From Deltaproteobacteria bacterium (GTDB lineage Bacteria; Desulfobacterota; Desulfobulbia; Desulfobulbales; SURF-16), in contig JACRCD010000039.1 of assembly GCA_016219175.1 (NCBI GenBank), positions 62,001 through 126,000 on the forward strand: 64,000 nt of DNA, given 5' to 3'. Below, in pieces: positions 14,454 to 21,189 of the stretch; position 1 is the first letter of the stretch, and each line of letters opens with the position of its first letter. Under the pieces are notes generated by a model. The model worked only from the letters and a program-made list of their open reading frames with translations, did no database searches and was not told the DNA's origin. Made by a program: the position numbers and the translations under genes.

Positions 14454-16964
14454 TCATGCTTCGTTGTTCGCGCTTGCGGAGATGGCGGTTAGCCCGGATG
14501 CTGCCGCTGGCTTTGCCGCGGTTTTACCTGCCGTGAGCAGTTTCTCAATGTTTCCGGCCGGCATCGGCTTGTGGAAATAATATCCTTGTATGGCGTCGCA
14601 GCCCTTATCCCGCAGGAAATAAAATTGTTCCTTTTTTTCAACCCCTTCAGCGACCACGGAGAGATGTAAACATTTAGCAAGGGCAATGATGGCGGAACAG
14701 ATCTCGGCATCCTTGGAATCAGTGGTGATATTCATCACAAAGCTGCGGTCTATTTTCAAAACGTTTATAGGGAAGCGCTTGAGATAGTTGAGCGATGAAT
14801 AGCCCATGCCGAAATCGTCGAGACAGATTTCCACCCCGGTTTCCTTGATGGCATGCAGCATCATGATCGCCTCTTCCTCGGCCTTGAGAAGAATGCTTTC
14901 GGTCAGTTCCACCTTGAGGTAGCTGCTGGGCAGCGAGGTATCTTCCAGGATTGACGTGATAATGGTGTAGATTTCCTTGCTCTGGAATTGGGGACTGGAA
15001 AGATTGACGGAAACGGGAACAACCGGAACGTCTTTCTGCTGCCATTCCCTGATTTGACAGACTGCCGACTTCATGACCCATGAACCGATCGGCACAATGA
15101 GGCCTGACTCTTCGGCAACCGGGATAAAGGCGGATGGCATGATCAGCCCTTTTTCAGGATGCTGCCAGCGGATAAGGGCCTCCAGCCCGTTAATTTCGGA
15201 GGTCTGGGCGTTTACCTGCGGTTGATAGTGGAGCACAAACTCATTGTCCTCAATGGCTCTACGCAATTCTCCTTCCATGGTTAGTCTTTCCAGGGCGGCG
15301 CTGTTCATGGATTCACAGTAATACTGGAAATTGTTTTTGCCTTTTTCCTTGGCGTGGTACATGGCGATATCGGCATTTTTCAGCATTTCTTCCGGGGTTT
15401 CCGCGTCACTTGGGAAAATGGTAATGCCGATACTGATAGTAATAAATACCCGGTGCGCATTGAGGCTGAATGGTTCGAGCAGAGAGGCAAATAAACGGCG
15501 AGCGACAATGGCGGCATCATTGTGATCCTTTATGTTTGTCAGGAGAACGGTGAATTCATCGCCGCCAAGCCGGGCCACCATGTCCGGGTCCTTGTCAAGA
15601 TGCGATACGGCGAGAAAATCCGCTTTTCTCATGTTTTCCTTAAACCGCACCGCCACCTGTTTTAACAGCTCATCGCCGAGGTTATGTCCGAGGGTGTCAT
15701 TGATGCGTTTAAAATTATCCAGATCGATGAACATCAGCGCAAAAATTCTCTGTTGACGCCTGGCTGTTTCAAGCAGGCGCGCAAGATAATCGTGAAACAT
15801 GACGCGGTTTGGCAGACCAGTGAGAAAATCATGGTAGGCGAGACGGCGTATCTGTTCATTGGATTCCCGCAGGTTGTTGCTCATGTCGATAAAAGAGCGG
15901 GCGAGATCGCCGATCTCATCGTTGGCCTTTGTGTCAATAACGATGTCCAGGTTGCCATGGCCAAAATCAACGGCGGCATTTCTGAGCTGCGTAACCGGGT
16001 TGATGATAATCCGCCTGCCAAGGAAAAAAAGCAGAAGGGAAATGATGACGATGGCGCAGATTGTGATAATGGCGATGGCAAATCCAAGTCTGTAGCTGGA
16101 GGCATAGAGTTTTTGCTCGGGGATCTTGGCGATGAGCAGGAGCGCGTCATTTATCTGCCGGGTGAAGACGAGAAAGGAGCCATGCTGTTCAGAGATTACA
16201 AAGGGGAAATCATTGTCCAGGTTTGCCATTGCCTGGTGCAGTTCCATGTCCGGCAGGCGCGAAATGTCCGGCTCGCTGTCTGAATGGAAAAAGACAGTGC
16301 CGCTTCTGTCCAGGAGAAGAAAGATGGTGCCGTATTCGTCCTCAGCCGCTTTTATTTTTTTTTGGAGCATTTCCAGGGTAATTGTAACAGCCAGATATCC
16401 GCGCAGAATCTTTGGCGAATTGACCGGATGCAGATTGGGGTCGCGCAGCAGAATTCTTTTGCTGGTCAGGAAGGAGATGTTGTTGTTGTCAGGATTTCTA
16501 AAGAGCGCGCTGAAGATGTCTTTTTCGGATTTACGCATTGCCTGAAATAAATCCGACCCACCTTCTTCTTCCGTGGAATTAGGCAGATCCGTAAGCGTCA
16601 CCCTCGTATCCTCGTAGCCGTCGGGGAGAAGGATGCGTATCTCGTAATAGTCAGGATTTGCCTTCTGGTAGGTGCTGAAAAGCCGGATAATGGTCGGCTG
16701 CAGGATCGTGTAGCGCACGTCGTCGGTGGAAAGCAGATAGTTTTCCAGCATGGCGGAGCTGGAAAAGAGTTCAATATCCCTTGCCGCTCCGTCATGGAGC
16801 ACCTGCATCCAGCCAACCGTGTTATCCATAAAAGAGAGGGTATTGCTAAGGGCCTTTTTAACGGTTGTTTCGCGGATCATGGAAAAGGACACACTGCCGA
16901 TGATCAGCATGAAGATGACAACAACAGGTGTTGTCATGAAAATTATTTTGGATTGCAGTCTCAA
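14454..16964 (-). CDS. Membrane GGDEF-EAL c-di-GMP enzyme with periplasmic sensor (MbaA-like)
   Basis: 836 residues. TM1 (about 8-28), a periplasmic domain of about 260 residues, TM2 (about 293-315), HAMP (315-368), GGDEF domain (about 375-545) with intact GGDEF at 467-471, then an EAL domain (about 565-815). The EAL domain has EAL at 595-597, VNLSSPQF, ELTESILL, CLDDFGMGYSSL and the EGVE loop, a set consistent with active phosphodiesterase. The inhibitory I-site Arg upstream of GGDEF is Lys (KDPD). The gene follows a PotD-like binding protein by 9 bases, which is the arrangement of Vibrio cholerae nspS-mbaA, where a periplasmic polyamine-binding protein controls the enzyme. Polyamine sensing here is inferred from that match. 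Confidence 0.92.
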   Translation of the reverse strand: MRLQSKIIFMTTPVVVIFMLIIGSVSFSMIRETTVKKALSNTLSFMDNTVGWMQVLHDGAARDIELFSSSAMLENYLLSTDDVRYTILQPTIIRLFSTYQKANPDYYEIRILLPDGYEDTRVTLTDLPNSTEEEGGSDLFQAMRKSEKDIFSALFRNPDNNNISFLTSKRILLRDPNLHPVNSPKILRGYLAVTITLEMLQKKIKAAEDEYGTIFLLLDRSGTVFFHSDSEPDISRLPDMELHQAMANLDNDFPFVISEQHGSFLVFTRQINDALLLIAKIPEQKLYASSYRLGFAIAIITICAIVIISLLLFFLGRRIIINPVTQLRNAAVDFGHGNLDIVIDTKANDEIGDLARSFIDMSNNLRESNEQIRRLAYHDFLTGLPNRVMFHDYLARLLETARRQQRIFALMFIDLDNFKRINDTLGHNLGDELLKQVAVRFKENMRKADFLAVSHLDKDPDMVARLGGDEFTVLLTNIKDHNDAAIVARRLFASLLEPFSLNAHRVFITISIGITIFPSDAETPEEMLKNADIAMYHAKEKGKNNFQYYCESMNSAALERLTMEGELRRAIEDNEFVLHYQPQVNAQTSEINGLEALIRWQHPEKGLIMPSAFIPVAEESGLIVPIGSWVMKSAVCQIREWQQKDVPVVPVSVNLSSPQFQSKEIYTIITSILEDTSLPSSYLKVELTESILLKAEEEAIMMLHAIKETGVEICLDDFGMGYSSLNYLKRFPINVLKIDRSFVMNITTDSKDAEICSAIIALAKCLHLSVVAEGVEKKEQFYFLRDKGCDAIQGYYFHKPMPAGNIEKLLTAGKTAAKPAAASGLTAISASANNEA

Positions 16965-16973
16965 AAAAAGTCC

Positions 16974-18059
16974 TTACTGGATGACAAGGTTGAATATGTC
17001 ATTGTATTTTTTTGCCCCCCTGGGCGGAAGATCCGCATAGGTTTCGGATTTTTCCAGGATTTCCTTCGTTGGATAAATATTGTGATCCGCCTTGAACTCT
17101 TCGGGGAGAATTTTTTCCGCGGCCAGGTTTGTTGTGGCAAAATAGGCAAATTGCGCCAGCCTGGCCATGATTTCAGGTTCGTGTATGAAATGAAGGAACT
17201 TGCAGGCGAGTTCCTTCTTTTTTGACGAGGCGGGAATGACAAAAAAATCACACCAGAGATTGCATCCTTCCCTGGGCTGGACGAAGGCAATGTCAGGATT
17301 ATGCTGGTGCAGGGCCAGCGCGTCACCGTTGTAAATCATGGCCATTAAGGTCTCCCCGGTGACCAGGGATGAATTTTGGGCAAGAGTGACATAGGAATAG
17401 ATCTGCACATGGGGTTTCTGAGCCAGGAGAAGCCGTTTGGCCGCATCAAGCTCGGCGGTCTCCGTCGAGTTGGCGGAGAATCCTAAAGCTTTCAGCGCCA
17501 TGCCTATCAAATCCCGCGAATCTTTGATCATGACAATTTTTCCTCGCAGAGACTCCTCCGGCCGGTACAAATCAAGCCAGCTGGTGACGGGCTTGTTTAT
17601 TTTATCCTGACGATAGGCAATACCCAAGGTTCCCCAGAGAAAAGGGACGCCATACCGTTCTGACTCCGGAAAGGCATTGCGCCACCTGGGGTTGACATGG
17701 CGCAGATTGGGAACATCCTTGTCCGTGATGGGATTCAGCCAGTTGTGTTTTACATATGAGGATAAAGACGAACCGTTGGAAAGCACCAGATCGAAGCCCG
17801 TGCCGCCATTTGTGCTGAACATGATCTCGTTTCTTATCTCATCGGTCTCGTAATAGGATTCGGCAATTTGTATCCCATATTTTTTTTGAAAATCTGCAAG
17901 AACGGCTGGATCAAAGTATTCAGACCAGATAAGGAGTTTGAGTTGATTGCCGGATTGTTGCTGGGCCGACGCCACTGCCGAGCCGCAGAGAATGAGGGGT
18001 AACACGGCAAGCAGTCTGCCCAGCCATCGGCAATGATCGAGTAAGACGGTACACAACAT
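16974..18059 (-). CDS. Periplasmic PotD-like (polyamine-type) binding protein
   Basis: 361 residues with a signal peptide (about 1-32, ending SAVASA), then the type-I extracellular solute-binding fold of PotD/PotF: LLIWSEYFDPAVLADFQKKY, DLVLSNGSSL, VPFLWGTLGIAYR and SLVTGETLMAMIYNGDAL. No ABC permease or ATPase genes are adjacent, so a transport role is unsupported locally. Instead it is the first gene of a two-gene unit with a membrane GGDEF-EAL protein. By analogy with NspS it is likely a ligand-binding subunit of a c-di-GMP receptor. The ligand could be spermidine, norspermidine or another cation. Confidence 0.85.
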   Translation of the reverse strand: MLCTVLLDHCRWLGRLLAVLPLILCGSAVASAQQQSGNQLKLLIWSEYFDPAVLADFQKKYGIQIAESYYETDEIRNEIMFSTNGGTGFDLVLSNGSSLSSYVKHNWLNPITDKDVPNLRHVNPRWRNAFPESERYGVPFLWGTLGIAYRQDKINKPVTSWLDLYRPEESLRGKIVMIKDSRDLIGMALKALGFSANSTETAELDAAKRLLLAQKPHVQIYSYVTLAQNSSLVTGETLMAMIYNGDALALHQHNPDIAFVQPREGCNLWCDFFVIPASSKKKELACKFLHFIHEPEIMARLAQFAYFATTNLAAEKILPEEFKADHNIYPTKEILEKSETYADLPPRGAKKYNDIFNLVIQ

Positions 18060-18317: not shown

Positions 18318-18728
18318 ATGGAAGCAAAAAATAAACTGCGCATGACCAAGCAGCGCCAGGTGATTCTTGAGGAATTACGAATGGTTAAAACGCACCCTAC
18401 GGCTGACGATATGTACCAGATGCTCCGCAAAAGGATGCCTAAGATCAGCCTCGGCACCGTGTACAGAAATTTGGAGATTCTGTCGGAATCCGGTATCATC
18501 CAGAAGCTGGATGTGGGCGGGACACAAAAAAGATTCGATGGCGATACCACCATTCATTCACATGTCCGCTGCGTTGCCTGCGGGCGGGTTGGCGATATCG
18601 ATGTGAAGCCAAACTGCAATCTCGAGGCAGAGGCCCAGAAAATGACTGATTATGAAATTATCCGTCACAGGCTCGAGTTTGCCGGTCTTTGTCCGTTATG
18701 CCAGCAGAAGAGGAAAGCCACGGCGTGA
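18318..18728 (+). CDS. perR: Fur-family peroxide-responsive repressor (PerR-like)
   Basis: 136 residues with the winged-helix start RMTKQRQVILEEL and LGTVYRNLEIL, the DNA-recognition helix of the family. Structural zinc cysteine pairs are C85/C88 and C125/C128. Candidate regulatory metal ligands are H26, H80, H82 and nearby Asp residues. A GGGGAGGAC ribosome site precedes the ATG. It heads an oxygen-defence cluster (desulfoferrodoxin, ferritin, flavodiiron protein), the usual context of PerR in sulfate reducers. A Fur-like iron-sensing role cannot be excluded from sequence, but the neighbours favour peroxide sensing. Confidence 0.85.
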   Translation: MEAKNKLRMTKQRQVILEELRMVKTHPTADDMYQMLRKRMPKISLGTVYRNLEILSESGIIQKLDVGGTQKRFDGDTTIHSHVRCVACGRVGDIDVKPNCNLEAEAQKMTDYEIIRHRLEFAGLCPLCQQKRKATA

Positions 18729-18903
18729 TTCCTGGCGCTCCGCTTTAAAAAGGGGGCGTTTGTTCGCGCCGCTGTGCCTGTCTGCCATGAGCAAGAGCCG
18801 TGGAGGGTGACCAACGCCGGAGAAGAGGCGATGAGGGACGAACCGCCTGGCCGGAAACAAGAGGCCCGAGTATCTTTTATACGACCGTCAAGAGGAGAAT
18901 GTC

Positions 18904-19278
18904 ATGACTAAGCAGCTTGAAGTCTACAAATGCGAAGTGTGCGGGAACATCGTTGAAATGCTTCATAGCGGAGCAGGGGAATTGGTCTGTTGCGGACAGC
19001 CGATGAAGCTTTTTGTTGAAAACACGGTGGACGCGGCCAGGGAAAAGCATGTGCCGGTGCTTGAAAAGGTGGATGGCGGCTATAAGGTAAAATTGGGGGC
19101 GGTTCCCCATCCCATGGAAGAAAAGCATTACATTGAATGGATAGAGCTGGTGGCCGGCGGCAGGGTGCTGCGTCAGTTTCTGAAACCAGGCGACGCGCCC
19201 GAGGCAACCTTTGTCACGAGCGACAAGGAAGTGTCTGCCCGGGCCTATTGTAATCTGCACGGGTTGTGGAGGAGCTAG
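18904..19278 (+). CDS. dfx: Desulfoferrodoxin (2Fe superoxide reductase)
   Basis: 124 residues, the usual length for class I (2Fe) superoxide reductase. The N-terminal desulforedoxin Fe(Cys)4 site uses C10, C13, C29 and C30. The catalytic centre uses H49 (in the conserved EKH), H69, H75, C116 and H119. It reduces superoxide to hydrogen peroxide in the cytoplasm without making oxygen, normally drawing electrons from rubredoxin. No rubredoxin gene is seen nearby. A GAGGAG ribosome site lies about 5 bases before the ATG. Ferritin starts 3 bases after the stop. Confidence 0.97.
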
Positions 19279-19281
19279 CCG

Positions 19282-19788
19282 ATGATAAGCAAAAACATGG
19301 AAAAGGCCCTGAATGAGCAGGTCAACTGGGAGTTCTATTCTTCGTATTTCTATCTTTCCATGAGCTCTTATTTCGCATCAAGCAGCCTTGCCGGCTGCGC
19401 CAACTGGATGAGGGTGCAGGCCCAGGAAGAATTGTTTCATGCCATAAAAATTTATGACTATATCAATGAGCGCGGGGGCAGGGCCATTCTGGAGGCCATT
19501 GCCAAGCCGCCCTTTGAGTGGAAATCTCCCCTGCATGTTTTTGAAGAGGTAATGTCCCACGAGCAGAAGGTGACCGGGCTTATTAACGGACTTGTCAACC
19601 TGGCCGTGGATGAACGTGACCACGCCACGAATAATTTTCTGCAGTGGTTTGTTGCCGAGCAGGTTGAGGAAGAGTCCTCCGTTGCCTCGGTAATGGAAAA
19701 ATTTAAACTGATCGGCAAGGACAAAAGCGGTCTGTTCGCCATTGATCTGGAGCTGGCCAAGAGGGTATTTGTCCCGCCCGCGAAATAG
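19282..19788 (+). CDS. ftnA: Non-heme ferritin
   Basis: 168 residues, the length of bacterial ferritin. The N-terminus (MISKNMEKALNEQVNWEFYS) and E-x-x-H helices (AQEELFHAIKIYDYINERGG) carry the ferroxidase ligands, and a later helix has EQVEEE. It stores iron as ferric oxide and so limits Fenton chemistry. It is directly downstream of desulfoferrodoxin (3-base gap) and is followed by a strong terminator, so the perR-dfx-ftn unit probably ends here. Confidence 0.96.
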   Translation: MISKNMEKALNEQVNWEFYSSYFYLSMSSYFASSSLAGCANWMRVQAQEELFHAIKIYDYINERGGRAILEAIAKPPFEWKSPLHVFEEVMSHEQKVTGLINGLVNLAVDERDHATNNFLQWFVAEQVEEESSVASVMEKFKLIGKDKSGLFAIDLELAKRVFVPPAK

Positions 19789-19811
19789 CGGAAAAAAGTA
19801 CGCAATCAGCA

Positions 19812-19849
19812 GGGTGCCTTGAAAAAGGAGGCATCCGGTTCGAGGGCAA
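19812..19849. repeat. Partial copy of the palindromic element at 5246
   Basis: The 38 bases here match the reverse complement of 5348-5385 at 34 positions, starting GGGTGCCTTGAAAAA and later GGTTCGAGG. Only one arm is retained. It lies between the ferritin stop codon and the terminator at 19868. This is the second occurrence in the window and shows the element is dispersed. Confidence 0.75.
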
Positions 19850-19867
19850 TTTTTAAGATTCCCGGAA

Positions 19868-19903
19868 GCCGTCCTGACAGCATATGCCAGGACGGCTTTT
19901 TTT
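19868..19903 (+). terminator. Rho-independent terminator after ferritin
   Basis: Stem GCCGTCCTG (19868-19876) pairs perfectly with CAGGACGGC (19888-19896) across an 11-base loop, followed by seven T residues. It closes the perR-dfx-ferritin unit and separates it from the flavodiiron gene. Confidence 0.92.
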
Positions 19904-19998
19904 ATGGGTGAGGTTTTTGAAATTGCCAATGTCACTGTTAGATGGTAAGTATTTTGTATTATTTAACAAGATAAATGATGCGACACAGGAGGAGTAAC

Positions 19999-21189
19999 AT
20001 GGGAGCGGTGGAGATAAAGGAAAATATTCACTGGGTCGGGGCTGTTGACTGGAATATCAGGGATTTTCACGGATACTCGACCTATAAAGGCACAACCTAC
20101 AATGCCTTTCTGGCAATGGATGAGAAAATCGCGCTTTTTGATACGGTGAAAAAGCCCTTTAAAGAGGAAATGCTGCACCGCATCAAACAGCTGACTGATC
20201 CGGGCAAAATAGACTACATCATCGTCAACCATGTCGAGATGGATCACTCCGGCTGTCTGCCGGAAATGGTGGAGCTCATCAGGCCGGAAAAAATATACTG
20301 TTCCCCCATGGGTGAAAAGGCGATCCACAGTCATTTTCACCCCAAGGACTGGCCCCTGGAAGTGGTGAAATCAGGGGACACCCTGAGTCTGGGTAAAAAA
20401 ACGGTTCATTTTCTGGAAACCCGTATGCTGCACTGGCCGGACAGCATGTTTTCCTACATCCCCGCGGATAAGCTCCTGATTTCCAGTGACGCCTTCGGCC
20501 AGCACTGGGCCACCTCGGAACGGTTCAACGATGAGGTGAGCGAAGGGGAGCTGATGAGCCATGCGGCCAAATACTATGCCAATATTCTGATGATCTTTTC
20601 GCCCAATGTGCAGAAATTGCTGCAAACCGTGACGGAGATGAACCTTGATATCGATATGATCGCCCCTGATCACGGACTGATCTGGCGTAAAAATCCCCGG
20701 CAGATTATCGAGGCCTATGACAGATGGAGTAGACATGAGGCCCGAAACAAGGTGGTGATCGTCTATGATACCATGTGGCACAGCACGGCGAAAATGGCGA
20801 AGGCCATTTATGAAGGCTTGGTGCAGGAAGGTGTCAGTGTACGGATGATGGATCTCAAGGCAAACCACCGCAGTGATATTATCACGGAGATACTTGATGC
20901 CAAGGGAGTGCTGTTTGGTTCCCCCACCTTGAACAATGGCATGCTGCCCACCATGGCCGACGTGCTGACCTATCTCAAGGGTTTGCGGCCGAAGAATAAG
21001 GTCAGTGCCGCCTTCGGCTCATTCGGCTGGTCTGGTGAGGCAGTCAAGCACATTAACGGATTTCTGGAGGAAATGGGCCTTGAGATCGTTGATCCCGGCC
21101 TTAAGGTGAAAAATGTGCCGAGCCATGAGGATTACCAGCAGTGTTTTGACCTGGGAGTCAAGGTGGCCAAGGCAGTAAAGGGCTCGTGA
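19999..21189 (+). CDS. roo: Flavodiiron protein (rubredoxin:oxygen oxidoreductase type)
   Basis: 396 residues from the ATG at 19999, which has AGGAGGAG a few bases upstream; an earlier in-frame ATG at 19975 is less likely. The beta-lactamase-like domain holds the diiron ligands H78-x-E80-x-D82-H83 (HVEMDHSG), H145, D164 and H225. The C-terminal flavodoxin domain (about 250-396) starts VVIVYDTMWHSTAKMA. It is a class A flavodiiron protein that reduces oxygen to water, or NO to nitrous oxide, in the cytoplasm. It is the next gene after the superoxide reductase and ferritin and belongs to the same defence island, although a terminator separates them. Confidence 0.95.
   Translation: MGAVEIKENIHWVGAVDWNIRDFHGYSTYKGTTYNAFLAMDEKIALFDTVKKPFKEEMLHRIKQLTDPGKIDYIIVNHVEMDHSGCLPEMVELIRPEKIYCSPMGEKAIHSHFHPKDWPLEVVKSGDTLSLGKKTVHFLETRMLHWPDSMFSYIPADKLLISSDAFGQHWATSERFNDEVSEGELMSHAAKYYANILMIFSPNVQKLLQTVTEMNLDIDMIAPDHGLIWRKNPRQIIEAYDRWSRHEARNKVVIVYDTMWHSTAKMAKAIYEGLVQEGVSVRMMDLKANHRSDIITEILDAKGVLFGSPTLNNGMLPTMADVLTYLKGLRPKNKVSAAFGSFGWSGEAVKHINGFLEEMGLEIVDPGLKVKNVPSHEDYQQCFDLGVKVAKAVKGS

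Follow-up and report, generated by a model that had tools for sequence, protein, structure and literature searches.

We describe a pair of genes in a stretch of 64,000 nucleotides from a deltaproteobacterial genome of the Desulfobulbales (assembly GCA_016219175.1, contig JACRCD010000039.1, positions 62,001 to 126,000), the whole of which is here called the window. One gene encodes a PotD-like periplasmic solute-binding protein (SBP) and the other a membrane receptor with GGDEF and EAL domains. Both lie on the minus strand, with 9 nt from the SBP stop to the receptor start, and among the window open reading frames (ORFs) no ATP-binding cassette (ABC) genes adjoin them. This is the arrangement that the first-pass annotation of this DNA had described, and the ORFs and domains confirm it, together with its periplasmic receptor domain of some 260 residues, which we place at about residues 31-285. 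The features, in window coordinates, are as follows.

16974..18059, minus strand: SBP gene (PotD-like periplasmic solute-binding protein), ATG start, 361 aa; ORF, Pfam, NCBIfam and structure model
14454..16964, minus strand: receptor gene (membrane protein with the order transmembrane helix (TM)-dCache-TM-HAMP-GGDEF-EAL), TTG start, 836 aa; ORF and Pfam
16971..16976, minus strand: TAAGGA, Shine-Dalgarno-like, overlapping the SBP stop codon; sequence
16110..16874, minus strand: periplasmic dCache domain (about residues 31-285), the proposed SBP docking site; model and Foldseek/VIA-align
15864..16016, minus strand: HAMP (residues 317-367); Pfam
15330..15839, minus strand: GGDEF (residues 376-545), with the motif GGDEF intact at 467-471; Pfam and motif
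14565..15269, minus strand: EAL (residues 566-800); Pfam and motif

The SBP scores 108 bits against Pfam SBP_bac_8 (cut-off 27); its closest NCBIfam model is PotD, at 178 bits, far under the equivalog cut-off of 582. A Sec-type signal peptide, read by eye, occupies residues 1-32 or thereabouts. The best Protein Data Bank matches of its AlphaFold model (mean predicted local distance difference test score, pLDDT, 92.9) are spermidine/putrescine-binding proteins, namely crystal structures of PotD and PotF, and V. cholerae PotD1 with spermidine and norspermidine is also among them. Identity to E. coli PotD is 31%. The position of TAAGGA across the SBP stop suggests that translation of the receptor is coupled to that of the SBP.

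In the receptor, HAMP, GGDEF and EAL are above the Pfam cut-offs and dCache_1 is sub-threshold (21.9 vs a cut-off of 45). Residues 1-313 were modelled by AlphaFold with a mean pLDDT of 90.9. The sensor domain lies between two membrane helices and has a predicted double Cache fold, reaching Z 16-19 to solved dCache domains (for example 2p7j at 19.0 and 3lid at 18.7) of kinases, chemoreceptors and one Vibrio GGDEF protein. Catalytic motifs for both reactions are intact, with E595, N654, E686, D716, D717, K737, E773 and Q793 all present in the EAL domain, and the receptor looks bifunctional by sequence. At the I-site position its GGDEF domain reads KxxD rather than RxxD.

Conservation of the pair and exchange of outputs

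Homologs of the SBP were sought in 146 genomes, of which 46 gave a match. In all 11 of the best matches (E < 1e-90, the window's own genome included) a receptor follows directly behind the SBP. Six of these receptors are of the GGDEF-EAL kind; besides that of the own genome, they come from four of the genus's five other genomes and from one further member of the family. The remaining five belong to another family of the order and carry the same periplasmic domain (about 30% identity) ahead of a histidine kinase, and a scan of one of them showed HisKA, HATPase and two receiver domains. A CheW-receiver (CheV-like) gene comes next at two kinase-type loci (L045:4153-5103 and L047:3001-4056), a possible link to chemotaxis. 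The weaker matches inspected come mostly from PotABCD operons, along with two Sinorhizobium meliloti-type NspS-MbaA pairs (L050 and L052) and another SBP-kinase group. This last is a set of PotD-like SBPs beside histidine kinases at L060:5990-10649, L072:5564-11048 and L073:524-4665, separate in the tree, with two SBPs in tandem at L060 and L072.

The converse search used a profile of the periplasmic domain (A1) against one genome per species, and we analysed the best 80 of 89 confirmed relatives. By record titles these loci come from Desulfobacterota, Gammaproteobacteria (Marinobacter, Halomonas, Pseudomonas and others), SAR324 and Magnetococcales. In 69 loci the upstream sequence reaches 1250 bp or more, and in 66 of these an SBP gene lies directly upstream on the same strand, counting as present one broken frame of 161 aa (L144). 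The receptors that went into profile A1 had first been reached by way of their SBP; when the eight seed records (L096-L099, L161, L162, L168 and L169) are left aside the figure is 58 of 61. Among the 11 loci with short upstream sequence, six show a whole or partial SBP at the edge of the contig. The rows from Marinobacter, Halomonas and Pseudomonas are closely related, and the loci are therefore not independent events. As the arrangement is kept in every one of the 11 genomes with a close SBP and in 66 of 69 loci found through the receptor, the neighbourhood of SBP and receptor is not chance. In four Marinobacter and Halomonas loci (L107, L122, L131 and L134) two or three SBP genes of the clade stand in tandem ahead of one receptor, as if several ligands were read by a single receptor.

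The same input is common to several classes of output. GGDEF-EAL accounts for 50 of the best 80 loci (49 intact, with L167, whose frame is broken, as the fiftieth) and histidine kinases for 22; three loci have a class III nucleotide cyclase (L120, L126 and L132), one a SpoIIE phosphatase (L160) and one a kinase-receiver-GGDEF arrangement (L159). One locus has no further domain after dCache-HAMP (L124), and in two the output is cut by the contig end. Within the 50 GGDEF-EAL receptors the GGDEF motif is kept in 48, the other two reading AGDEF, and the EAL motif in 45. On the SBP tree, many of whose inner branches are weak, the output class changes at least eight times among 73 labelled rows. The system is sparse in the phylum sample, where four of 395 genomes hold a full strong match (E < 1e-80), and a plasmid search with the sensor domain gave no match.

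Binding pocket and proposed mechanism

What would the SBP report to its receptor? Across 67 family SBPs the aromatic box of the pocket is nearly constant (W45 in 67, Y48 in 66, W269 in 65 and Y243 in 54, with F or W in the remaining 13), and so are its clamp acids (D271 in 67, D246 in 63, and D or E at position 183 in 60); D73 is kept in 55. Eight ligand contacts have been modelled in NspS: W41, D70, D90, F131, Y233, D236, W261 and D263 (PMC9993111). An alignment with NspS had been proposed as a check on the first-pass annotation, and in it six of the eight are kept in the window SBP (W45, D73, Y243, D246, W269 and D271) and two are altered; positions were mapped by way of the S. meliloti NspS sequence and the V. 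cholerae numbers in print, with the D70 column ambiguous by one. A pocket in which W45, Y48, Y243 and W269 and the acids D183, D246 and D271 are kept, combined with the retention of both enzyme motifs, leads us to expect a ligand of the polyamine type and a changed balance of cyclic di-GMP (c-di-GMP) synthesis and breakdown.

We think it probable that the two genes form a sensory unit in which the SBP reports a polyamine-type cation to a dCache receptor that sets c-di-GMP synthesis against breakdown, working as NspS-MbaA does and belonging to a distinct subfamily. The SBP would bind the extracellular cation, most likely spermidine or a relative, and in one of its ligand states would dock on the dCache domain; docking would be passed through the membrane and HAMP to the GGDEF-EAL half, whose balance would shift between synthesis and breakdown. 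The model for V. cholerae is that NspS carrying norspermidine binds MbaA and favours synthesis, and that spermidine or the absence of ligand favours breakdown (PMC8079147). For the window pair the operon, the folds as predicted, the enzyme motifs, the lack of a recognised polyamine transporter, the linkage throughout the family and the variety of outputs are shown here; the ligand, direct contact between SBP and receptor, the direction of the response and the downstream targets are what we infer.

Several observations weigh against this account. The two altered contacts, D90 to N95 and F131 to L141, lie in the pocket itself. Three receptors with this sensor domain (L156, L157 and L158) have enough upstream sequence and no adjoining SBP, and the dCache domain could have its own ligand. 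Across 39 pairs, divergence of the SBP correlates with that of the dCache domain (r 0.894) no more strongly than with that of GGDEF-EAL (r 0.887), and therefore lends no special support to contact; with the cytoplasmic half equally co-divergent, we dropped co-divergence as evidence for it. The main caution comes from PA0602 and PA4985 of Pseudomonas aeruginosa, SBP_bac_8 proteins predicted to bind spermidine/putrescine that prefer gamma-aminobutyric acid (GABA) (PMC11113362).

That precedent opens an alternative in which the pair works in the same way and the SBP senses another small cation or an omega-amino acid, such as GABA, 5-aminovalerate, agmatine or the like. P. aeruginosa SBP_bac_8 proteins encoded near sensor kinases bind GABA and 5-aminovalerate, not spermidine (PMC11113362), and within the window family positions 95 (N in 29, S in 20 and D in 7 of the 67) and 141 (F in 40 and L in 13) vary, which suggests varied ligands. 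Against it, the top structure matches are spermidine/putrescine binders, and the clamp acids D246, D271 and D183 are kept along with the aromatic box. We regard such a ligand as unlikely.

Relation to NspS-MbaA

Is the pair simply a diverged orthologue of V. cholerae NspS-MbaA? The first-pass annotation had presented it as resembling that system, outside Vibrio. Pairs of this type were reported in 2023 in 222 of 16,076 proteobacterial genomes, taking both proteins at no less than 30% identity over no less than 60% and genes within 20 bp, and they include S. meliloti, Pseudomonas, Shewanella and others (PMC9993111). At under 1.4% of proteobacterial genomes (PMC9993111), NspS-MbaA has been taken to be rare. 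The pair described here is real, conserved and plausible, and its resemblance to NspS/MbaA in a bacterium other than Vibrio is no novelty.

By those published thresholds the pair qualifies as homologous to that of S. meliloti: identity is 32% over 347 columns (about 96%) for the SBP and 31% over 512 columns (about 61%) for the receptor, with genes 9 bp apart. The receptor match is limited to residues 311-820, so that only the HAMP-GGDEF-EAL half aligns. The sensor domain has no BLAST match to S. meliloti MbaA, and HMMER profiles of the window-type and MbaA-type sensor domains each fail to find the other. An hhalign comparison aligns the first 183 columns at 88% probability, covering the first half only and including the first membrane helix, which leaves room for a distant kinship of the two domains.

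The D90-F131 and D236-W261 spacings are 41 and 25 in V. cholerae (published numbers), 43 and 25-26 in the S. meliloti type, 46 and 23 in the window SBP and 47 and 23 in PotD. The catalytic motif is at D426 in V. cholerae MbaA (PMC8079147), at D427 in S. meliloti and at D469 in the window receptor, which has 836 aa against the 790 aa of NspS-MbaA receptors. By spacings and motif positions V. cholerae appears to group with S. meliloti, and the window pair appears to be a subfamily distinct from both. The NspS-MbaA receptors of these two species read SGDEF-EAL or SGDEF-EVL, unlike the GGDEF of the window. The two S. meliloti-type pairs at L050 and L052 have an AGDEF motif and come from genomes of the window's own order, and thus both subfamilies occur in one order.

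In the SBP tree (rows under 280 aa dropped), a branch with full support in the Shimodaira-Hasegawa-like approximate likelihood ratio test (SH-aLRT 100) has 76 receptor-coupled and four NspS-type SBPs on one side. On the other are 16 SBPs mostly of PotABCD operons, a group that includes a lone SBP from a Vibrio sp. HDW18 plasmid with no adjoining transporter genes and E. coli PotF, and five of another kinase group. In the best tree NspS falls inside the receptor-coupled clade, of which it may be a branch; a tree with NspS outside is also not rejected (approximately unbiased test, p 0.358).

Plain orthology thus has the published homology thresholds and the best tree on its side. Against it stand the restricted receptor match, the mutual failure of the sensor profiles and the differing pocket spacing and receptor length, and we find it doubtful. 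What survives of the comparison is the way of working: a PotD fold with an acid-aromatic pocket that keeps most residues, encoded directly before a membrane HAMP-GGDEF-EAL receptor, with no transporter found. Simple membership of the lineage does not, given a sensor domain unrecognised by BLAST and HMMER, GGDEF in place of SGDEF, and two of eight contacts changed.

The interest of the pair lies in the broader SBP-dCache family to which it belongs, one whose outputs are exchangeable and which, unlike NspS-MbaA, also drives kinases, cyclases and a phosphatase. In the open-access literature searched we recognised no description of such a family. We are evenly divided over the broader proposal that one PotD-type SBP and one dCache head make up a modular family found in scattered taxa, with at least four output classes and sometimes two or three SBPs per receptor, and that NspS-MbaA is a derived offshoot of this older module for reading polyamines. 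If the same head does drive kinases, cyclases and phosphatases, a single device, transferable and with many outputs, would serve to read extracellular amines. The family would also offer natural domain swaps, from which the signal-carrying part could be told, and natural examples of one receptor with more than one binding protein, in bacteria beyond the Vibrio models.

SBPs coupled to sensor kinases are exemplified by LuxP-LuxQ and TorT-TorS. SBP-activated sensor histidine kinases resemble the window pair in that the SBP gene sits beside the receptor gene and the SBP is thought to dock on the periplasmic domain of the receptor (PMC11113362); their output is a kinase, whereas the input family described here spans several output classes. 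ScrB-ScrC of Vibrio parahaemolyticus, compared by description and not by sequence, likewise joins a periplasmic signal-binding protein to a dual-function c-di-GMP enzyme that it switches, but the signal is made by ScrA of the same operon (PMC10269520).

Transport, polyamine synthesis and neighbouring genes

Could the SBP instead be a stray PotD serving an ABC transporter encoded far away, its place beside the receptor being incidental? The first-pass annotation had raised a distant permease as the finding that would count against it, and we searched the whole genome (4.2 Mb in 97 contigs, 98.4% complete, 1.6% missing) and found no such partner. The SBP of the pair is its one SBP_bac_8 protein. 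No PotA is above cut-off in the genome (best 156 bits vs 356). Nine matches to binding-protein-dependent permeases occur; by model scan eight are closest to the Yej/Opp, Pst, Mod, Tup-like and Ssu-like families, with no PotB/PotC-like permease among these eight, and the ninth is flanked by an ATPase and by an SBP of a different kind. Although the SBP shares the fold and pocket of PotD in PotABCD importers, it falls in a separate clade, no PotA, PotB or PotC is recognised in this 98.4%-complete genome, the SBP is linked to this receptor type in 66 of 69 loci, and an ORF with an ABC-ATPase motif lies near the receptor in three of the best 80 loci, so that we consider a stray PotD with a distant ABC partner highly improbable.

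Which polyamine does the cell make? An nspC gene above cut-off stands behind a carboxynorspermidine-synthase-like gene, which scores 415 bits against its own model's cut-off of 800. No diaminobutyrate aminotransferase is above cut-off in the genome; on this ground norspermidine was set aside as the cell's own product, and spermidine by the carboxyspermidine route becomes more likely. From these family models, the cell probably makes spermidine in this way. The genome has 18 PilZ matches, by which c-di-GMP has readers in the cell.

The first-pass annotation had also pointed to exopolysaccharide and flagellar operons in the window. The flagellar cluster is there (flgL, flgK, flgI, flgA and flgF-like genes), but exopolysaccharide is represented only by hints, a GNVR/Wzz-type protein and a PrsT-like tetratricopeptide repeat protein. 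Flagellar or exopolysaccharide genes would be candidate downstream targets of the receptor.

Window positions 18318-21189 hold a PerR-like regulator gene, divergent from the SBP gene, followed by desulfoferrodoxin, ferritin-like and flavodiiron-like genes, the last two called from a look at the sequence only. Neighbour genes at loci L040 and L042 also resemble ferritin and flavodiiron genes.

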